Positions 140 through 19,185 of a stretch of 41,957 nucleotides of DNA are shown piece after piece. The notes beneath the pieces were generated by a model. The model saw only the letters and a program-made list of their open reading frames with translations, was not told where the DNA came from and did not search any database. A program made the position numbers and the translations under genes. Numbering within the stretch: position 1 is the first letter of the stretch; every line of letters begins with the position of its first letter. Origin of the DNA: Nitrosospira sp. (GTDB lineage Bacteria; Pseudomonadota; Gammaproteobacteria; Burkholderiales; Nitrosomonadaceae); the NCBI GenBank assembly GCA_013450215.1, contig JACDSH010000042.1, forward strand, positions 1 through 41,957. Reading direction: 5' to 3'.

Positions 140-1345
140 TCAGTCCCAGCTGAGAGCCCCACCGGTCTGGTACTCGGTAACACGCGTCTCAAAGAAGTTC
201 TTCTCCTTCTTGAGATCCATCATCTCGGACATCCATGGGAAAGGGTTATTAGCACCAGGGTAGAGCGTATCCAGTCCGATCTGTTGGCACCGACGGTTGG
301 CAATGTATCTCAGATACTCCTTGAACATCGGCGCATTCATGCCCAATACGCCCCTCGGCATGGTGTCCTCTGCATACCGGTACTCCAACTCAACCGCTGT
401 CTGCATTAGTCCATTAATCTCATCTCGAAACTCCTTCGTCCAGAGCTGCGGGTTCTCCATCTTGATCTGGTTGATTACGTCAATCCCGAAGTTGCAGTGC
501 ATCGACTCATCCCTCAGGATGTACTGGTACTGCTCTGCTGCACCGGTCATCTTGTTCTGCCGACCCAGGGCCAGTATCTGAGTAAAACCTACGTAAAAAA
601 ACAGCCCCTCCATGATGCATGCGAATACGATCAAACTCCTCAGCAACTTCTGATCGGCCTCCAGAGTACCGGTCTCAAAGTGAGGGTCTGTCAGGGTATC
701 GATGAACGGAATCAGGAACTCGTCCTTATCACGGATTGAAGTGACCTCATGATAGGCATTGAAGATCTCGCCCTCGTCCAGACCCAGAGACTCAACGATG
801 TACTGATAGGCATGGGTATGAATTGCCTCCTCGAATGCCTGTCTCAGAAGATACTGCCGACACTCTGGATTGGTAATATGGCGGTATGTTCCGAGTACGA
901 TATTGTTCGCTGCTAACGAATCAGCCGTCACAAAGAATCCTAAATTTCGCTTAATCAGCCGCCTCTCATCCTCGGTCAGTCCATTAGGGTCCTTCCAGGT
1001 GGCGATATCCCGACTCATGTTTATTTCCTGGGGCATCCAGTGGTTGGCACATGCCGAGAGATACTTCTCCCATGCCCACTTATACTTGAACGGCACCAGC
1101 TGGTTCACATCTGCCTTGCAATTAATAATCTGCTTATCTTCGACCGATATCCGGCGGTTAGAACCCCCTCCTCCGGATTGATCATCCCCTCCACCATCAA
1201 CCCTCGTATCAGCATCCCCGACCAAGGTCATTCCACCTGCAACATGAAGCTTTTTCCCGCTCAAGGCCATCGGCTGCACGCCCCCTGATACAACCTGCAA
1301 CATCGGCGTTCCTGATTGCATTGTTTCATTCTCAATATTCAGCAC
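140..1345 (-). CDS. nrdB: Class Ia ribonucleotide reductase, beta (radical) subunit
   Basis: The protein (401 aa) holds the di-iron/tyrosyl radical that starts reduction of ribonucleoside diphosphates by NrdA. The ferritin-like core shows an iron-ligand and radical block EEAIHTHAY (residues 172-180), in which E173, H176 and Y180 match E115, H118 and radical Y122 of the E. coli enzyme. DESMHCNFG further on supplies the last Glu and His ligands. The tyrosine is present, so this is a conventional radical-bearing enzyme. Residues 1 to about 68 precede the conserved core and look like a flexible linker with Gly-rich stretches; many betaproteobacterial NrdB proteins have a variable extension here. 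The gene lies 33 bp after nrdA on the same strand, so the two are probably co-transcribed. The 139 bases beyond its stop contain no gene or terminator that I can see. Confidence 0.96.
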
Positions 1346-1378
1346 AGTCTTCTCCTTTTATTCCTGACGATCTATGAA

Positions 1379-4234
1379 TTACTGGCAAGACTCACACTCT
1401 GGGGTATCGATAGAACAGTACTTTAGGTCTGTCGCTGTCGCAGCCGCACTCACCCCCCCATCCGCCGGCACAGCGTTCAATACGCCCGCGTTTACTGTGG
1501 ACTTCTCTGCCGAGGTTGCACCCAGTGTGCGCAGATAATAGGTCGTCTTAAGACCTCTCAGCCATGCCAACTTATAAGTCTCATCTAACTTCTTCCCAGA
1601 AACGCCCGCCATATAAATATTGAGCGACTGAGCCTGATCAATCCATTTTTGTCGTCTCGATGCCGCCTCGATCAGCCAGTGAGGCTCGACCTCAAATGCG
1701 GTGGCATAGAGCCTACGGATATCAGCCGGCGCCCGGTCTATCTTGCTCAGCGCCCCATCAAAATACTTAAGATCAGAGATCATCACCTCATCCCAGAGCC
1801 CGACCGCTCTCAAATCTTTTACCAGGCTCTCGTTTGCAATCGTGAACTCTCCCGACAAGTTGGACTTGACATAGAGGTTCTGGTAGGTCGGCTCGATACT
1901 GGCGGATACGCCGATGATGTTTGAGATGGTCGCGGTTGGCGCGATCGCGAGGCAGTTTGAATTACGCATCCCGTGCTGCTTGATGCGTTCACGCAAGAGC
2001 CCCCACTCTAAGGTCGACGAGCTGTCCACCTCGACATAGCCGCCACGCTCCTCTCTCAGTAAGTCGAGAGTATCCTGCGGCAAGATCCCACGATCCCACA
2101 AACTGCCCTGGTAGGATGCATAACACCCCCTCTCCTCGGCCAGTTCAGTCGAGGCCCAGTAGGCCTGATAGGCGACCGCCTCCATCGAATGGTCTGCGAA
2201 CTCAACCGCTTGCTCAGAAGCGTACGGAATTCGCAGCATATGCAGACAATCCTGAAACCCCATGATGCCCAGACCCACTGGGCGGTGTTTCAGGTTTGAA
2301 TTACGCGCCTTAGCAACGGCATAGAAGTTAATATCGATTACATTGTCCAGCATCCTCATGGCCGTTCTGATGGTACGCTTGAGCTTCTCGGTATCAAGCC
2401 TTCCGTCCTTGATGTGTGCTGACAAGTTAACCGATCCCAGATTACACACCGCGATCTCATCAGAGCTCGTATTTAATGTGATCTCCGTACAAAGATTAGA
2501 GCTATGCACGACCCCAACGTGATTCTGGGGAGACCGGATATTGCACGGGTCCTTGAAGGTGATCCATGGATGCCCAGTCTCGAACAGCATACTCAGCATC
2601 TTGCGCCATAGCTGCTGAGCGGGAACTTTTTTGTATAGGCTCAACTCGCCACGATCAGCCTTCTCCTCGTAGGCCAGATAAGCACTCTCAAAAGACTTGC
2701 CGAACTTCTCATGGAGGTCGGGCACATCCGATGGTGAGAATAGAGTCCACTCACCCCCCTCCATCACCCTCTTCATGAACATGTCCGGAACCCAGTTGGC
2801 GGTATTCATGTCATGGGTCCGGCGCCGGTCATCCCCTGTATTCTTTCGTAGCTCTAGGAACTCCTCTATATCAAGGTGCCATGTCTCTAGGTATGAGCAG
2901 ACAGCCCCCTTCCGCTTACCTCCTTGATTCACCGCAACTGCGGTATCTGATACCACCTTGAGAAAGGGAACCACTCCCTGAGACTTGCCATTGGTCCCCT
3001 TGATATGCGACCCCATCGCTCTCACCGCAGTCCAATCATTACCCAGACCACCAGCATACTTGGCGAGAAGCGCATTCTCTTTAATCGCCTCGTAAATACC
3101 GTCCAAGTTATCCGACACCGTGGTCAGATAGCACGACGATAGCTGAGACCGGCACGTACCCGAATTAAACAGAGTCGGTGTAGAGCTCATGAAATCAAAA
3201 CTCGACAGGACATGATAGAACTCGATCGCACGAGCCTCTCGGTCCACCTCATTCAGAGCAAGCCCCATCGCAACCCGCATAAAGAATGCCTGCGGTAATT
3301 CGATCCTCTGATCCTGCACATGCAAGAAATAACGGTCATACAGAGTCTGCAATCCTAGATAGCCAAACTTTAAATCTCGGCTGGCATCGAGCACCTTCGC
3401 CAATCGAGGCAGATCGAACTGAGCCATCCTGCCATCCAACAACTCGGCATCGATACCCCTCTTGATGAATTCGGGGAAGTATCCAGCGTATCGTGACAGC
3501 ATCTCTTCCTGTATTACCTCCTCACCCAGAACCTCGACCCGGATGGTATGCAACAATAGTCGCGCTGTCACGTAGCTATAGGCAGGCTCTTTCTCGATCA
3601 ATGCTCGGGCAGAGAGAATGACCGACTTCCTCACCTCCTCCGCCGGAACTCCATCGTACAGATCCTTTAGTGTGGCCTTGAGTATCAGCGTAGCGCTCAC
3701 CGTTTCGTTCAGCCCTGCGCAGGCAGACTCGATCAGCGCCAGCAAACGAACCGTATCAAGGGGGACTCTATTTCCACCCTCCATCACATGCAAGATACTG
3801 GCAGGCATCTCTGCCGCAATCGCAGCCTTTTGCCTTGCCCTCTCTCGAGTCCTTTCCTCTCGGTAGAGCACATAGGACCGCGCCACGTCGTGATCACCCG
3901 ATCTCATCAGAGCGAGCTCCACCTGGTCCTGGATATCCTCAATATGGAAGGTCCCACCTTCTGGCTGATGTCGTATCAGCGCGCTGACCACATTATTGGT
4001 CAGCTGACCGACCACCTCCCTCACTCTGGTTGAGACCGCACCCTGACCCCCATTCACAGCGATAAAGGCCTTGGTCATTGCGATGGAGATCTTGCTCGGT
4101 TCGAAAGAAACTACCGAGCCATTGCGGCGAATTATTTTGTGCTGGGAGTACCGCGAGTCTTGTGAGGTGGCAGCTGGAGAAAAGTCGTAATTGGGCGTTA
4201 GCACCGGATCGGTGTTGTCTGCTGCGAGCTGCAT
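1379..4234 (-). CDS. nrdA: Class Ia ribonucleotide reductase, alpha (catalytic) subunit
   Basis: This 951-residue subunit reduces NDPs to dNDPs. An N-terminal ATP-cone (about 33-130, RRNGSVVSFEPSKI) senses ATP/dATP, and residues about 150-240 look like a second cone-like or linker domain. The length fits the longer NrdA type known from Pseudomonas and betaproteobacteria. Catalytic residues visible: C368 (SSCYL) and C597 (AVCNLG) as the redox pair, N580/C582/E584 (SNLCTE) as the thiyl loop, Y899-Y900 (TYYLRT) for radical transfer, and a C-terminal CESCQ (C947, C950) that re-reduces the site. An AAGGAGAG ribosome site lies just upstream of the ATG at 4234. NrdR-like boxes lie about 100-145 bp upstream, so repression by NrdR is likely. 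Confidence 0.97.
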   Translation of the reverse strand: MQLAADNTDPVLTPNYDFSPAATSQDSRYSQHKIIRRNGSVVSFEPSKISIAMTKAFIAVNGGQGAVSTRVREVVGQLTNNVVSALIRHQPEGGTFHIEDIQDQVELALMRSGDHDVARSYVLYREERTRERARQKAAIAAEMPASILHVMEGGNRVPLDTVRLLALIESACAGLNETVSATLILKATLKDLYDGVPAEEVRKSVILSARALIEKEPAYSYVTARLLLHTIRVEVLGEEVIQEEMLSRYAGYFPEFIKRGIDAELLDGRMAQFDLPRLAKVLDASRDLKFGYLGLQTLYDRYFLHVQDQRIELPQAFFMRVAMGLALNEVDREARAIEFYHVLSSFDFMSSTPTLFNSGTCRSQLSSCYLTTVSDNLDGIYEAIKENALLAKYAGGLGNDWTAVRAMGSHIKGTNGKSQGVVPFLKVVSDTAVAVNQGGKRKGAVCSYLETWHLDIEEFLELRKNTGDDRRRTHDMNTANWVPDMFMKRVMEGGEWTLFSPSDVPDLHEKFGKSFESAYLAYEEKADRGELSLYKKVPAQQLWRKMLSMLFETGHPWITFKDPCNIRSPQNHVGVVHSSNLCTEITLNTSSDEIAVCNLGSVNLSAHIKDGRLDTEKLKRTIRTAMRMLDNVIDINFYAVAKARNSNLKHRPVGLGIMGFQDCLHMLRIPYASEQAVEFADHSMEAVAYQAYWASTELAEERGCYASYQGSLWDRGILPQDTLDLLREERGGYVEVDSSSTLEWGLLRERIKQHGMRNSNCLAIAPTATISNIIGVSASIEPTYQNLYVKSNLSGEFTIANESLVKDLRAVGLWDEVMISDLKYFDGALSKIDRAPADIRRLYATAFEVEPHWLIEAASRRQKWIDQAQSLNIYMAGVSGKKLDETYKLAWLRGLKTTYYLRTLGATSAEKSTVNAGVLNAVPADGGVSAAATATDLKYCSIDTPECESCQ

Positions 4235-4331
4235 ATCGAACTCTCCTTATATATTCTGTTTCTATTGCAATACTAAACGGGCAGCACCCCTCCTCATGTT
4301 ATATCAGGACAGATAGCCAGCATGTCCATTG

Positions 4332-4349
4332 ACTACTACATCTAGTAGT
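4332..4349. promoter_or_regulatory. NrdR-box-like operator, proximal copy
   Basis: This is a perfect inverted repeat with 7-bp arms (ACTACTA / TAGTAGT) around CATC. Its inner CTA-N4-TAG core matches the heart of the NrdR box consensus. It lies in the leader of nrdA, and its centre (4340.5) is 32 bp from the centre of the next palindrome, about three helical turns. Paired boxes with this phasing are typical of NrdR control of ribonucleotide reductase operons. NrdR itself is not in the window. Confidence 0.75.
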
Positions 4350-4366
4350 TCATTAAATCATATTCA

Positions 4367-4378
4367 ACTATTAATAGT
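4367..4378. promoter_or_regulatory. NrdR-box-like operator, distal copy
   Basis: This perfect 12-bp palindrome, ACTATTAATAGT, again has the CTA-N4-TAG core. Together with 4332-4349 it forms a phased pair in front of nrdAB. On the minus strand a TATAAT hexamer lies at 4409-4414, but I see no convincing -35 for it, so the exact promoter position relative to the boxes is uncertain. The rest of the 4235-4525 gap is AT-rich and contains no gene. Confidence 0.75.
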
Positions 4379-4525
4379 ATTTGCATATGGAAGTGTAGTT
4401 TTGTATAAATTATAAAATAATGCAAGCATTTTTTACGAATATCGCTAAATAAAAAATTATAAATCTAGGTACCCCGAGTCATGCCCTTTGATACTTCTAA
4501 TCAGATCTCTCAACACCGACGTAAC

Positions 4526-5278
4526 TTATTGTGAGATGCCGATCAATGCACCCCGATCAAGAAGGTCTCTCATCACCACCAGACCCCCCTCAATCACGGC
4601 CCCCGGTTCAGGATGTTGACTCTCTTTAGCGATAGTCTCAAGCGCTCTCCGGCCGGTGTTCTTCGTGTTCCCGAACAGACCTAGCAGTCTTGTGGTGAAT
4701 GCATTGATCTCCATGAATTGAACCTGATCACCCGCATCGCGGAATACCAGCAGGTAGGTCTCTGCCGGCACAACTCTGACACCTGACTCGATGCGATGGA
4801 CGGGCCAGTGATAATGCAGACTCGCAAGAACCGGATTCAGAACCGGACGCCCCTCGAGCAGGTCCCCCTCTCGGTCGATTTGATTCCAGTCCGGCTCACG
4901 GGTTGATATAGAGAGCACCAACTCAATCCACTCGTAGTGAGCGAGCTCTATCATGTATCTAGGGTCACTCGCAGACGGGTTCCACTCGTCCTTCAAAAAG
5001 TGGATGAACTCGTCCGGTATCTGACGAAAGAATGGTGACTGGCAGCGGTGTTTGGCTAAGAAGGCCCTCACCAATCTCGTCCAACGGCGCAGCCCTAAAA
5101 CCTCTCTCAGTACGGGAAAGCAGGTCAGGAGGAAGCTCTCTATATTTTTGTAGACCAGGCCCTCGTATACCCGCATCCGCCTCGCTTCAATCCCGCTCGG
5201 ACATGGATGTTTTTTAGGATCTCTCAGATGAGCGGTAAACTCATACTGAAATCGCTGAAATTCAAGAGGTGCTAGCAT
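4526..5278 (-). CDS. DUF2063 partner protein of the MNIO enzyme (HvfC/BufC-like)
   Basis: The 250-residue protein has an N-terminal DUF2063 domain (about 5-95; RRMRVYEGLVYKNIESFL followed by a FPVL segment) and a C-terminal domain with HYHWPVHRI and FMEINAFT, as in the HvfC/NGO1945 family. In this family the protein partners a DUF692 MNIO enzyme and is thought to recognise or deliver the precursor peptide; old annotations as a DNA-binding protein are unsupported. I chose the ATG at 5278 because AGGAAAG stands correctly before it. A longer frame opening at 5329 would overlap the upstream gene by 68 bp and has no ribosome site. Even so, the gene overlaps the end of the MNIO gene by 17 bp, which suggests translational coupling. 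It is the last gene of the cluster. Confidence 0.88.
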   Translation of the reverse strand: MLAPLEFQRFQYEFTAHLRDPKKHPCPSGIEARRMRVYEGLVYKNIESFLLTCFPVLREVLGLRRWTRLVRAFLAKHRCQSPFFRQIPDEFIHFLKDEWNPSASDPRYMIELAHYEWIELVLSISTREPDWNQIDREGDLLEGRPVLNPVLASLHYHWPVHRIESGVRVVPAETYLLVFRDAGDQVQFMEINAFTTRLLGLFGNTKNTGRRALETIAKESQHPEPGAVIEGGLVVMRDLLDRGALIGISQ

Positions 5279-6110
5279 CTCTTTCCTGGCTGTATCTCGC
5301 CTGATTCTGGGCGATACGTTTAACCTCAATCATCAACTGATCAAGTGGCGGGATATTAAAGTCCCTCTCCAGCAGTGTCGGCAACACCCCATGGATGCGG
5401 TAGGACTCATCCAACAGCGACCAAACAGGCTCGATCACGTCCTCACCATGGGTATCGATGACCAGATCCTCATCCTCCTGATAGTGTCCTGCCATGTGCA
5501 GGTAGACAATACGCTCCGCTGGCATGGAACGGATAAACTCAATCGGGTCGTAGTCGTGGTTGATGCTGTTGACGTACACATTATTCACGTCGAGATGCAG
5601 ATCACAGTCCGCTTCCACTAAAACGGACCGGATAAAATCGACCTCACTCATCTCGGCAATGGGCGCCTGCAAATAAAAAGAGGCATTCTCTATCGCGATA
5701 CGGCGCTGCAGAATATCTTGAGTGATCCGTATCCGCGAGGAGACATACCTCACAGCCTCCTCGGTGAAGGGGATTGGTAATAGATCGTACAGATGTCCAT
5801 CATCAGAACAGTAGGATAGATGCTCGGTGTAGAGCAGTACTTGGTGCTGATCGAGGAACCTCTTGATCTTATAAAGCAGATCCTCATCCAAAGGGGATGG
5901 GCTCCCGATTGAGAGCGACAGCCCGTGACAGACGAATGGATATCGTTCGGTGAATCTACGCAGGTCACGCCCCAGCGAACCACCGATATCGATCCAGTTT
6001 TCGGGTGCTACCTCAAAAAAATCGATACCGTCTGGGACATGCTCCTTCAGCGAGGGGATCATCTCTCGCCGAAATCCCAGACCCGCGCCTGTAAGTTTTA
6101 GGCGGCTCAT
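5262..6110 (-). CDS. DUF692 multinuclear non-haem iron oxidase (MNIO; HvfB/BufB-like)
   Basis: The 282-residue TIM-barrel enzyme belongs to the DUF692 family that uses two or three irons and oxygen to modify cysteines in ribosomal peptides (MbnB in methanobactin, HvfB and BufB in copper-related peptides). Candidate ligands are spread as expected: H62 (CHGLSLSIG), E96-H97 (TEHLSYC), E141 (AIENAS), D174 (LDVNNVYVN), H205 and H209 (YLHMAGH), D219 and H221 (IDTHG), and E248 (LERDFN). It sits between a small secreted Cys-motif protein and a DUF2063 protein on one strand, the canonical precursor-enzyme-partner order. Its ribosome site is weak (AAGAG), which would keep enzyme levels below those of the precursor. 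The identity of the modification (thiooxazole, oxazolone/thioamide or other) cannot be read from the sequence. Confidence 0.93.
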   Translation of the reverse strand: MSRLKLTGAGLGFRREMIPSLKEHVPDGIDFFEVAPENWIDIGGSLGRDLRRFTERYPFVCHGLSLSIGSPSPLDEDLLYKIKRFLDQHQVLLYTEHLSYCSDDGHLYDLLPIPFTEEAVRYVSSRIRITQDILQRRIAIENASFYLQAPIAEMSEVDFIRSVLVEADCDLHLDVNNVYVNSINHDYDPIEFIRSMPAERIVYLHMAGHYQEDEDLVIDTHGEDVIEPVWSLLDESYRIHGVLPTLLERDFNIPPLDQLMIEVKRIAQNQARYSQERDASTS

Positions 6111-6183
6111 GGCTCTTGCGCGCGACTATATACCCATGCCGAGATACTCGCCCTCACGATAGCCCGAAACCGCCGCCTCTCAT

Positions 6184-6546
6184 TTATTTCTTCTTGGCGA
6201 GCTCGCCCTTACCCAGCTCGGTCTTTTCAATAAATCCGTCCTTGTTGGCGTCCATATGCTCGAACATGACATCATGATGCTTGCTCCATTCTTCCTTGCT
6301 GACCTTGCCGTCCTTATTGGTATCCGCCATGGTCACACCACACATCCCCTCAGTGGTCTTCATTGATCCACACTTACCCTGTCCACACTTGCCCTCTCCA
6401 GCCTTCACTTGTGCGACCATGTAGCCTTTATCCAGGGGCTGAGCTACGAATGGGTTATCGGCGGCAGCGGCGATTGGTGCCACTCCGAGAGTGGCCGCAA
6501 AGGCGGATCCAACAGCGATTGAAATGACCGATTTTTTGTAGAGCAT
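6184..6546 (-). CDS. Secreted EGKCG-motif, EF-hand protein; probable MNIO substrate (bufferin/HvfA-like)
   Basis: The 120-residue protein begins with a Sec signal peptide (hydrophobic core about 8-28, likely cleavage near A29/D30). The mature part contains a Cys-Gly cluster EGKCGQGKCG (51-60) and EGMCG (66-70), giving three cysteines (54, 59, 69) that resemble the EGKCG motifs modified by HvfB-type enzymes. Two textbook EF-hand loops follow, DTNKDGKVSKEE (75-86) and DANKDGFIEKTE (99-110), and the tail is Lys-rich. The ribosome site AGGAG is 7 nt before the ATG. It is first in a three-gene cluster, 73 bp before the MNIO gene, so it is the obvious substrate. Family knowledge suggests copper sequestration in the periplasm; EF-hands suggest Ca2+ binding. 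Substrate status and metal are inferred. The 278 bp upstream contain no other gene. Confidence 0.85.
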   Translation of the reverse strand: MLYKKSVISIAVGSAFAATLGVAPIAAAADNPFVAQPLDKGYMVAQVKAGEGKCGQGKCGSMKTTEGMCGVTMADTNKDGKVSKEEWSKHHDVMFEHMDANKDGFIEKTELGKGELAKKK

Positions 6547-6824
6547 AATGATCTCCTATGTGCATAAAAAATTTTTGCGTCACAGTCTGCTGACAAATCC
6601 AGCAAAAGCTTGCTACCGATAATTCGCGAACCGAACCCCTCTCAGGGTAGATCGCTTGCTATGTCGGATCGAGTTTTAGGGTCGTGACAGCCCCGCCAAA
6701 AAAGCATAGCACAACTCCTCTCTAGAAGCCCCCTTCGAGCAGAGGCGGAAGACCTCTCGACAAGCAACACTCACATAATAACGAAGAAGCTCACTGCGAG
6801 CTATCAGTCACGACCCGACCTGAG

Positions 6825-7730
6825 TCAAGTACGATTCGCTGCAAATGCACGCGCTGCCCTTGATCCGGAGGGCCTTCCCAAAAAGTTGCAGATGAAGTTA
6901 CCAGCAGAGATCAGTCTATCCATATCTACGCCCGTCTCGATCCCCATTCCATTTAGCATATAGAGTAGGTCTTCACTCGCCACATTACCGGATGCGCCGG
7001 GCGCATACGGGCACCCGCCCAGACCCGCTACCGAAGAGTCGAGCACGCTGATACCGCACTCTAGAGCAGAATAAGCATTGGCAAGTGCTTGACCATAGGT
7101 GTCATGAAAGTGTCCTGCAAGATTCTTCAGTGGCACCCTCCCCGCCACCACCTCGATCAGGCTCCGCGTCTTGCCCGGGGTGCCAGTCCCGATTGTGTCC
7201 CCCAGGGAAACTTCATAGCAACCCATGCGTAATAACTCTGCCGCGATATCTGCCACCCTATCCGGCTCTACTGATCCCTCGTATGGGCACCCGAGGACAC
7301 AGGATATATATCCCCTCACCCTCACCCCACCCGCCTGGGCGACAACACATATCTCATCAAAACGTGCCAACCCCTGCTCGATAGAGCAGTTGGTATTCCT
7401 GCTCGAAAAAGTCTCGCTCGCACTCGAGAATACGGCGATCTCGCTAACCCCAGCGGCTAATGCCGCTATGAGGCCCTGCATGTTAGGAACCAGCGCTGGA
7501 TAGCTCACCCCGGGCCACTTGTTTATACCTGCCATGACCGCCGCATGATCCGCCATTTGCGGCACCCACTTCGGCGACACAAATGCGGCCGACTCCACCA
7601 CGGACAGACCCGCCTTCGAGAGTCTCTCAATCAGCTCGATCTTGACTGAGGTCGGCACACTGATGGATTCATTCTGCAGACCGTCACGCGGCCCGACCTC
7701 AACTATCTTTACATACTCTGGAAGACCCAT
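6825..7730 (-). CDS. mvaB: Hydroxymethylglutaryl-CoA lyase
   Basis: This 301-residue TIM-barrel lyase cleaves 3-hydroxy-3-methylglutaryl-CoA to acetoacetate and acetyl-CoA, the last step of leucine breakdown. It shows [11 protein letters not shown] (catalytic Asp/Arg region) at the N-terminus, the metal-binding HFHDTYGQ, and the C-terminal signature [14 protein letters not shown] with the conserved cysteine. The start at 7730 has GGAAAGAGGG before it. No other leucine-catabolic gene is next to it, so its physiological partner genes must lie elsewhere, or the enzyme serves another acyl-CoA. It is divergent from the gene starting near 7898, with shared control DNA of about 170 bp. Related HMGL-type aldolases are the main alternative, but the signature strongly favours the lyase. 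Confidence 0.93.
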
Positions 7731-16987: not shown

Positions 16988-18187
16988 TCAATGATGCCCC
17001 TTCGTCTCAGCCTCAGGTGGCGCTAAGTGGGTGAACTCTACGCTATCTTCATATGCTAGCTCGGTCGTCCCCGTCGCCTTAATTAGTTTGCCGGCCAGGA
17101 ATCCACACCCCAGTGCGAGCGTTACACTGACAATGATTCCGATGAATTGAACTCCGGCTATTCCCGGAACCACCATGATGGCGATCAGCGCACCCAGAAT
17201 TCCTGGCATCCCATGCAAGTTATGGACACCACAGGTATCAATAATTTTAAACCGCGATTCCAATGCGGGCTGAATAAAAACATAACCAATGACGCAGACT
17301 GCGCCGGCTAGTAAGCCGATCCCAAAAGCACCTGACGGCGAAACTATATTGACCGTTGATCCGATGGCAACACCTCCCGCTAGGGCGGCATTAGCCATAT
17401 CGACCATTGAGGTCTTTCCCTTATGAAAGTATGAGCTAAGGAAGTAGGTGCTGATGGTCGCTCCGCAAAGCGCGAGCACGGTATTGACCACTGTCTGAGG
17501 CATCTCCTCAAAGGGAACGATGGCTGCTGCGAAACTTGGCCAGAAGAGCCACAGAACCATTGACCCAAGCATCGCAAAACGATCGGACGTGGCATCAGAC
17601 TCAATCGGTTGACTGCGCTGCAACTCGGTGGTCAGCGCGATGGATAGGCCCAACCCAAAGTAAGCTCCAAAGGCGTGGATGATGACTGAGCCCGCCGTAT
17701 CCTGGAACCCCTTTGTGAAGCCCAACGCACCATCCAGCACCAGATATTCATTCATTAGGTATGCCGGAATCAGAAAAATCGCCAGCAATGCGTATTGAAA
17801 AACCCGTAAACGTCCAAGCACTGCGCCCATGGCAATCAGTGCAGCTGCTACTGCGAATTCAGCAAACATTAATGCCTGAACTGTATTCGGGGCGATGGCG
17901 TGCCCCATTATTCCATTCGCTCTGAGCAGTATATACAGAGGGAGCCCCACCGCAACCACCAGATAGGTTCCCGTCGTGGCACCGAATCCGTATCGGCGAA
18001 CGAACACCATCAGAAATCCAAATCCCACTAATAGCATGGCCAGGATATGGATGACAAAGTTGTACTGGGATACTTGCCGAGCTTCACTGAGCTCCGGAAC
18101 AGCCGCCCCCTCACTCGCCCAAGCGCTGAAACAAAACAAAAAAAGATTCGCTACAACAGACAGCGCCATGCAGAAGCTTCTTTTCAT
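16988..18187 (-). CDS. Rh50-type ammonia channel
   Basis: The 399-residue membrane protein should pass NH3/NH4+ across the inner membrane. An N-terminal signal sequence (about 1-25) is followed by about eleven hydrophobic segments. IHAFGAYFGLG and DTCGVHNLHGMPG contain the pore histidines in an Rh-type context and distinguish it from AmtB. Rh50 is known from Nitrosomonas and a few other bacteria. I start at 18187, where GGGGAG stands before the ATG; the frame opens at 18205 without a ribosome site. No glnK is adjacent, as expected for Rh rather than Amt. The C-terminal tail (LAYEDSVEFTHLAPPEAE) is cytoplasmic. Confidence 0.9.
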   Translation of the reverse strand: MKRSFCMALSVVANLFLFCFSAWASEGAAVPELSEARQVSQYNFVIHILAMLLVGFGFLMVFVRRYGFGATTGTYLVVAVGLPLYILLRANGIMGHAIAPNTVQALMFAEFAVAAALIAMGAVLGRLRVFQYALLAIFLIPAYLMNEYLVLDGALGFTKGFQDTAGSVIIHAFGAYFGLGLSIALTTELQRSQPIESDATSDRFAMLGSMVLWLFWPSFAAAIVPFEEMPQTVVNTVLALCGATISTYFLSSYFHKGKTSMVDMANAALAGGVAIGSTVNIVSPSGAFGIGLLAGAVCVIGYVFIQPALESRFKIIDTCGVHNLHGMPGILGALIAIMVVPGIAGVQFIGIIVSVTLALGCGFLAGKLIKATGTTELAYEDSVEFTHLAPPEAETKGHH

Positions 18188-18205
18188 TTGCGTCTCCCCA
18201 TCCAC

Positions 18206-18585: not shown

Positions 18586-19185
18586 CTATGACTTGGCACC
18601 TGACTTACGGCGACGTAGCCATAAGAAAGCACCGATACCGGCTGCGGCAAAAAAAACTGCAGCCTCCATCAAGCCAGGGGACGAGCCATGGCTCCCATGC
18701 CCACCACCCTCACCAACTGTTAACGGGATACGGACCTTCTCCTTCATCGCTCCGGCCTCCTCTGTTTCCAGCAGCACGACATACTGACCGATGTCAGCCA
18801 TGTCGACCTCTCCGAGCGAGATGCTCCCGGATGGGTATATCTTTGGCGGGAGGGATAGTATCTCATGTCCATTCGGACCATGGCCCTCCATCACTACCCG
18901 TACAGCCAGTGGAAGCTTCCGAGACTCGGGGTCGTTCAAGTCCACCGACATGAGGATGATCCCCGTTGCAGGTATCTGCTGACAGAACGCGTGCATCGGA
19001 GGGATCTCCCCCTTCGGTTTCTCATAGGCGCTAAAATTTACAGAGAAGGCTCCGCCATTGATGACACAATCACCCGAATGGTGACCCTCATGGGCAAGCA
19101 TCAGCTGCGCATGGGCTGGTACCGTCACCAGCATTATCAGTACCGCCCAACTCAGCCGCTCAGCCCATCCAGATACTCTGTTCAT
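18586..19185 (-). CDS. His-rich periplasmic protein with C-terminal membrane anchor, function unknown
   Basis: I do not recognise the family. The 199-residue protein has a signal peptide (hydrophobic 11-24, cleavage near AHA/QL at 26), and an N-terminal His/Cys patch LAHEGHHSGDC (30-40, with a second cysteine at 68) that could bind metal or form a disulfide. A beta-rich middle region (about 75-155) follows, then a Gly/His/Ser hinge (GGGHGSHGSSP, 160-170). One hydrophobic helix (171-190) is capped by RRRK, so the protein should be tethered to the inner membrane and face the periplasm. GGAG precedes the ATG. It lies just upstream of the Rh50 gene on the same strand but about 400 bp away, with a hairpin between, so co-transcription is doubtful. 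Confidence 0.82.
   Translation of the reverse strand: MNRVSGWAERLSWAVLIMLVTVPAHAQLMLAHEGHHSGDCVINGGAFSVNFSAYEKPKGEIPPMHAFCQQIPATGIILMSVDLNDPESRKLPLAVRVVMEGHGPNGHEILSLPPKIYPSGSISLGEVDMADIGQYVVLLETEEAGAMKEKVRIPLTVGEGGGHGSHGSSPGLMEAAVFFAAAGIGAFLWLRRRKSGAKS

Follow-up and report, generated by a model that had tools for sequence, protein, structure and literature searches.

Organisation of the locus

The window, the whole stretch of 41,957 nucleotides that was analysed (contig JACDSH010000042.1 of the Nitrosospira sp. assembly GCA_013450215.1), carries on its minus strand, at positions 4526-6546, an hvfABC-type operon with the gene order A-B-C, as found from the list of open reading frames and from profile searches. 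The original prediction had read these genes as an MNIO peptide-modification cluster made of a secreted cysteine-motif protein, a DUF692 enzyme and a DUF2063 partner. The three open reading frames were confirmed, and the three-gene feature is real, correctly read, far beyond chance and a member of a published kind. It comprises the following parts.

6184..6546, minus strand: hvfA-type precursor of 120 aa, with a Sec signal peptide, an EGKCG/QGKCG/EGMCG segment and two EF-hand loops
6460..6546, minus strand: signal peptide, residues 1-29 (K4K5 n-region, hydrophobic core, AAAA-D; judged by eye from the sequence)
6421..6456, minus strand: NPFxxxxLxxGY-type stretch, residues 31-42, a possible recognition part (alignment)
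6385..6387, minus strand: C54 of EGKCG, predicted modification site (sequence)
6370..6372, minus strand: C59 of QGKCG, predicted modification site (sequence)
6340..6342, minus strand: C69 of EGMCG, preceding EF loop 1 by 6 residues (sequence and spacing counts)
6289..6324, minus strand: EF-hand loop 1, residues 75-86, DTNKDGKVSKEE (Pfam EF-hand_5)
6217..6252, minus strand: EF-hand loop 2, residues 99-110, DANKDGFIEKTE (Pfam EF-hand_5)
5262..6110, minus strand: hvfB, MNIO (DUF692), predicted thiooxazole-forming enzyme (PF05114, E 1e-103; NF003818)
4526..5278, minus strand: hvfC, DUF2063 partner protein (NF050145; the open reading frame opens at TTG 5329)

The precursor has a signal peptide, as well as the three motif cysteines that had been claimed for it, and its two EF-hand loops are indeed joined to the EGKCG-type motif. 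It scored 46.1 bits against Pfam EF-hand_5 (cut-off 25.9, E 2.4e-12) in two stretches, and both loops are canonical. The two EGKCG-type motifs (C54, C59) are 5 residues apart. Among the Pfam matches at E up to 1 there was none to DUF2282 (PF10048, bufferin Buf1). By analogy with HvfA and the bufferins, the signal peptide is a probable leader for HvfBC (PMC13419390; papers are cited by PubMed Central accession, each for the available portion of its text).

HvfB scored 431.6 bits against NF003818, above the curated cut-off of 360, and matched 3BWW at 6.5e-78. The motifs around H62, H97, E141, D174/N176/N177, H205, D219/H221 and E248 are intact and align with those of 3BWW; we take these His, Glu, Asp and Asn residues, partly after PMC13419390, to be the metal ligands. 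HvfC scored 276.9 bits against NF050145 (curated cut-off 142) and matched 3DEE at 1.7e-15. Of its two candidate start codons, the ATG at 5278, which follows GGAAAGAG, is likelier than the TTG at 5329; from there hvfC would overlap hvfB by about 17 nt. With HvfB and HvfC both over their curated cut-offs, the assignment to an HvfABC-type MNIO operon was upheld. Next to the cluster in the window, no hvfX gene of the DoxX type was noticed.

Ahead of the operon lies one further candidate feature.

6700..6717, minus strand: upstream element GAGTTGTGCTATGCTTTT, possible promoter (candidate), about 153 nt ahead of the hvfA start

The sequence TTGTGnTATnCTnTT is common to 6 of 6 aligned hvfA upstream regions of the host genus, roughly 153 nt upstream of the start codon. 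A sigma-70 promoter scan of 4300-6900 gave no match, nor did an Rfam search.

The host genome spans 1.6 Mb in 59 contigs and is 99.8% complete. It contains a single AMO-family match (9.5e-122) and a single match to the multi-haem family PF13447 (5.9e-150), which we take to include HAO. Relatives of the locus in named genomes belong to Nitrosomonadaceae, Nitrosospira and Nitrosovibrio. By these matches and relatives, the host is an ammonia oxidiser of the Nitrosomonadaceae, a possibility that the original prediction had raised. Ammonia oxidisers rely on copper enzymes and must handle periplasmic copper. Elsewhere in the window, a His/Gly-rich protein that looks secreted, has a hydrophobic segment at its C-terminus and gave no Pfam match (18586-19185, minus strand) adjoins an ammonium-transporter-family gene (16988-18205).

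Register between the motif cysteine and the EF-hand pair

The original prediction left open whether the fusion of an EGKCG-type motif to EF-hands was already known. It is not new: a Buf_EGKCG/EF-hand_5 chimaera with two EF-hand_5 domains behind a short EGKCG segment has been described (Antoine et al. 2025, PMC12452194), and the idea of an undescribed architecture was rejected. In a literature search that covered few subscription papers, only that paper surfaced for MNIO or thiooxazole with EF-hands, and nothing for lanmodulin with MNIO, for DUF692 in Nitrosospira or for bufferins together with copper in ammonia oxidisers. The main text of PMC12452194 has no words starting with Nitroso, ammonia or lanthan.

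The last CG cysteine precedes the opening Asp of EF loop 1 by 6 residues in 75 of 76 Cys-bearing chimaeras from the family (7 in the remaining one) and in 27 of 30 proteins from named loci, the exceptions being 7, 17 and 45; the two sets overlap, as they come partly from the same organisms. The spacing between the two EF loops is likewise constant, at 24 in 76/76 and 28/30 proteins. In contrast, the distance from the leader to the first cysteine varies from 8 to 61 (unscored in 16/76 and 3/30), and that from cysteine to cysteine from 5 to 15. An alignment of 25 chimaeras shows no variation at C69 and G70, nor at F33, L38 and Y42 of the NPFxxxxLxxGY-type stretch; these 25 were chosen from 31, and L100 and L106, two of the three exceptions in spacing, are among the six omitted. 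At locus L213 the whole GEGxCG-EF-EF unit is duplicated. Given the constant spacing, the invariant C69 and this duplication, C69 appears to be part of the EF module, and C54 and C59 part of a variable repeat segment. The register may reflect functional coupling, or merely a conserved domain edge. The fixed distance itself appears to be a new detail on the described fusion.

A survey of named genomes covered the best 80 HvfB loci of a longer list. The upstream precursor had EF-hands and motif cysteines at 25 loci and cysteines only at 44; none was called by the set criteria at 11. Chimaeras are carried by Nitrosomonadaceae, by Thiobacillus and other Hydrogenophilales-type records, by metagenome-assembled genomes of Ectothiorhodospiraceae and by Tahibacter soli. 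A further CG motif follows the EF pair in one or more chimaeras at 16 of these 25 loci, so that the pair is enclosed by motifs.

A tree was built from 81 HvfB proteins, 70 of them labelled (the 11 loci without a called precursor were left unlabelled, and L100, with one clear loop, was labelled as cysteine-only). Mapping the EF label onto it takes 9 changes, and well-supported branches force no fewer than 5 of these; shuffled labels take 21 on average. EF-bearing precursors are therefore clustered on the tree, yet were gained or lost at least 5 times, or swapped with the operon. Within the family, HvfB exceeded its cut-off in 91 of 125 genomes, with some match in 97 and none in 28, and chimaeras bearing cysteines were found in 40 of the 125. 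A chimaera match at 1e-12 was obtained in 54 of 399 genomes sampled from the order, whose loci L234-L262 were judged by the match table. Outside the family most of these matches cover the leader and motif part only, G287 being the sole clear full-length match by the listed match ranges.

Two further arrangements were observed. Two tandem precursors precede hvfB at L044, L052, L057, L011, L045, L050, L056 and other loci of genus g2: a precursor with 3-4 cysteines, either with EF-hands or of 74 aa without them, and a single-Cys EF chimaera. Spy-like periplasmic proteins at L072 5504-6061, L080 2891-3559 and L233 489-1157 have their N-terminal 46-66 residues or so in common with captophorin precursors; the LTXXQ match was checked for L072 5504-6061 alone, and L233 belongs to a genome without HvfB match.

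Genomes without HvfB and copies away from the operon

Altogether 83 chimaera-class proteins were fetched. All 74 from HvfB-bearing genomes keep the CG cysteine next to EF loop 1. Nine come from genomes without an HvfB-type enzyme; seven of them, all from genus g4, lack the motif cysteine, and two keep it. None of the eight g4 genomes reaches the HvfB cut-off, and in 7/7 of the g4 homologues a Tyr stands in place of the Cys while the Gly is retained. On the tree the g4 proteins fall together with a class from Nitrosospira-type genomes whose members have a single Cys and adjoin hvfB (support of the fork, 93). Several HvfB-less genomes are drafts that are 72-92% complete, so that single absences are weak, which does not hold for G011 (99%) and G017 (97%). 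Behind the Cys-free EF gene of G011 lie two pieces of hvfC in collinear order (independent E-values 3.2e-10 and 1.5e-4), without hvfB. None of 20 mononucleotide shuffles matched at E 1; plain tblastn with the HvfC of the window alone gave only E 0.037. To judge by its sequence, this stretch is a decayed hvf operon.

Some genomes and proteins were treated separately. G014 and G023 were counted as HvfB-less, their MNIO (34-35% identity) being far below the HvfB cut-off. In G014, a g4 genome, this distant MNIO lies in a cluster (L072 1490-5224) with DUF2063-like, DoxX-like, sigma-factor and anti-sigma-like genes, named by eye, which looks bufferin-type. G004 was dropped from the counts: its sole match is a gene remnant that lies behind a stop and lacks both leader and Cys; this decayed EF-hand lies at L079 ~1342-1464 (minus strand), in a host-genus genome that is 74% complete and in which no HvfB was found. 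Set apart from the chimaera counts were 19 EF proteins below 100 bits, the Nitrosomonas HxC type, with the Cys in another context. In the sample of this class the paralogues keep their Cys regardless of HvfB, in 12/12 proteins from HvfB-bearing and 7/7 from HvfB-less genomes. The presence of amo was rejected as an explanation of hvf loss: the gene turned up in 3 of the 8 g4 genomes but was also missed in G001, G002, G004, G006 and G009, so that its absence is uninformative in these drafts. Adjoining the chimaera of G087 is a 104-aa Cys-rich protein without Pfam match (L220 1290-1604, minus strand), which presumably resembles a copper storage protein.

The host genome has a single PF05114 (MNIO) match but two chimaera genes. 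The second, on another contig (C31:16261-16668; L063 3762-4169, plus strand), has the same layout, with three motif cysteines and two EF-hands, and its 4.6-kb stretch contains no MNIO. In 4 other genomes of the host genus there are comparable copies that lie apart from hvfB. Across that genus a chimaera adjoins hvfB in 8 of the 8 genomes that have an HvfB match. EF-hand homologues unlinked to a DUF692 gene had been named beforehand as an observation that would count against the predicted cluster. This was borne out in part, as such paralogues do exist, including in the host; but the unlinked copies do not contradict an MNIO substrate, because the CG cysteine is kept throughout the chimaeras from HvfB-bearing genomes.

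Proposed function, rival explanations and known systems

With a probability of about 0.72, the hvfABC operon would make a secreted copper-binding protein of the captophorin/oxazolin type with a built-in EF pair. HvfC would bind the signal peptide, and perhaps also the NPFxxxxLxxGY region, as leader. HvfB, a di-iron MNIO, would oxidise C54, C59 and C69 to 5-thiooxazoles in the cytosol, with a mass change of -4 Da each, up to -12 Da. The protein would then be exported through Sec, the signal peptide being removed near A29, and the thiooxazoles would bind and buffer periplasmic copper. These steps are proposed because of the homology to the characterised HvfABC, FonABC and bufferin systems. HvfBC and FonBC make 5-thiooxazole at the EGKCG cysteine (-4 Da per site), full-length HvfA including its signal peptide is preferred, and the products bind copper (PMC12668002, PMC13097082, PMC13419390). 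Also in favour are the HvfB and HvfC scores, the intact ligand motifs of HvfB, the CG cysteine kept in 74 of 74 chimaeras from HvfB-bearing genomes and lost in g4, the hvfC pieces of G011, the fixed register, the duplicated unit of L213 and the AMO and HAO-family genes of the host. By analogy with the characterised systems, modification of some precursor cysteines by HvfBC is very likely; that the product is thiooxazole and the bound metal copper is also likely, if slightly less so.

We further infer that the EF pair would be loose in the low-calcium cytosol, allowing modification and export, and would fold on a metal outside, most likely Ca2+, thereby setting the C69 site beside EF loop 1. 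That metal-triggered folding is the purpose of the EF pair is a tentative proposal. Going further, the GEGxCG-EF-EF unit could be a composite two-metal module with the C69 thiooxazole as the edge of EF-hand 1, which is unlikely. If it were so, binding of Ca2+ or a lanthanide after export would fold and perhaps dimerise the protein and set its copper affinity; one small protein would read a periplasmic hard metal as well as copper, and the EF pair would be a switch keeping the MNIO substrate unfolded until exported.

Several observations weigh against the proposed copper-binding, HvfBC-modified protein. The precursor lies below the HvfA equivalog cut-off (NF050188, 21.1 bits against 95) and just below that of KCGExKCG_twice (NF050137, 19.2 against 19.5). 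The confidence of the AlphaFold2 model is low (mean predicted local distance difference test score 54.5, about 65-74 for residues 71-110 and below 50 for the motif part). Genus g4 keeps Tyr-Gly at the same position, and the constant spacing could just reflect a conserved domain edge. On the chimaera tree (124 columns, Cys columns kept; 33 of 83 inner branches open) there is one Cys change against three HvfB changes, and a paired sign test is not significant; with one Cys change, the g4 result is effectively one event. Moreover, G087 (99% complete) and G140 (80%) each keep one CG cysteine in spite of lacking an HvfB match, which makes the Cys loss in g4 only suggestive. Co-loss of HvfB and cysteine was rejected as proof on these three grounds. 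A FonA fragment with a single repeat is not modified (PMC12668002, PMC13097082), and many single-Cys chimaeras may therefore not be substrates. Data on modification, copper or calcium were found for none of the chimaeras. The FonA fragment and the two genomes G087 and G140 also favour a chimaera that is not modified by HvfBC at all and whose cysteines are plain thiols or disulfides. Such a protein is highly improbable, as the EGKCG and QGKCG motifs resemble known substrate motifs, two of them lie close together here, and a chimaera adjoins hvfB in every host-genus genome with an HvfB match.

Alternatively, the EF domain might be the functional part, as a Ca2+ buffer, a sensor or an EfhP-type signalling protein, with the modified cysteines tuning or anchoring it and copper being secondary. 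Antoine et al. (PMC12452194) propose calcium homeostasis or signalling as an added role, and Cys-free EF homologues with two recognisable loops persist in 7 of 8 g4 genomes, so that the EF part seems useful without modification; position 6 of loop 1 is, however, not Gly in 5 of these 7. This alternative is judged quite unlikely, the CG cysteine being kept in every chimaera from an HvfB-bearing genome, and L044, L052 and L057 carrying the 74-aa EGKCG precursor without EF-hands, though a single-Cys EF chimaera adjoins it. The EF pair might instead be lanmodulin-like, with a lanthanide or some other hard metal bound in place of Ca2+. Among the best 60 of 267 matches of the chimaera profile to solved sequences, lanmodulin came top (6mi5, 5.9e-14; 8fns, 8.7e-14), ahead of Ca2+ proteins, so that the two Ca2+ sites of the original prediction are putative. 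The loops of the window protein are separated by 12 residues, within the 12-13 of lanmodulin, in keeping with the spacing of 24 throughout the family set; such a linker is a lanmodulin hallmark, against about 25 residues in Ca2+ EF proteins (PMC10232371). Position 9 of loop 2 is acidic in 76/83 proteins, but that of loop 1 is Ser or Thr in 83/83. The 6mi5 score is the sum of two stretches (29.6 and 26.5 bits), and lanmodulin may rank first simply as the solved protein having this spacing. The window precursor has two EF-hands, not four; proline at loop position 2 is found in 0 of 166 loops of the 83 proteins (T and A in the window), and the precursor reaches 21.2 bits against the lanmodulin model NF053806, whose cut-off is 135. 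A fold search with the low-confidence model gave no match at E 0.001; Hans-lanmodulin came first, but at E 0.52 and on a par with a Ca2+ carrier domain. By eye, Nitrosomonas EF paralogues outside an MNIO context are also spaced 24, so this spacing may be common in bacterial EF pairs. A lanmodulin-like metal preference is judged very unlikely.

What makes the predicted copper-binding protein with an EF pair interesting is the fixed register, the second copy apart from the operon and genus g4 as a control; these are computed findings, and the function is predicted. The register makes a published, unexplained fusion a testable proposal for joint action of a copper site and an EF-hand, for which the HvfB-less and Cys-less genus g4 is a natural control.

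Among known systems, lanmodulin is likewise a small periplasmic protein with adjacent EF-hands 12 residues apart and is the top solved-sequence match; it differs in its four EF-hands and proline 2, the window protein having two hands, no proline 2 and an MNIO motif. The HvfABC oxazolin system of Haemophilus influenzae shares the gene order A-B-C, the signal peptide and the EGKCG motifs, with HvfB and HvfC of the window above the cut-offs. To our knowledge HvfA has no EF-hands. It also differs by its three AEGKCGEGKCG motifs (PMC13419390), and the window precursor is below the HvfA cut-off. With the captophorins and the fontiphorin system FonABC the locus shares an EGKCG-type Cys motif, an MNIO with a PME1 partner and a three-gene minimal cluster (PMC12668002); FonA has seven modification sites, and a term search of the available text of that paper found no mention of EF-hands. 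The closest relative is the chimaera of PMC12452194, which the window protein fits: a signal peptide or N-terminal hydrophobic helix, a short EGKCG segment without 17-residue repeats, two C-terminal EF-hand_5 domains and adjoining MNIO and DUF2063 genes. To that description, as far as its available text goes, the present analysis adds the 6-residue spacing from cysteine to EF loop 1, EF pairs that lie between CG motifs, paralogues of ammonia oxidisers that are not linked to hvfB, loss of the cysteine with loss of HvfB, and the lanmodulin-like spacing of the loops.

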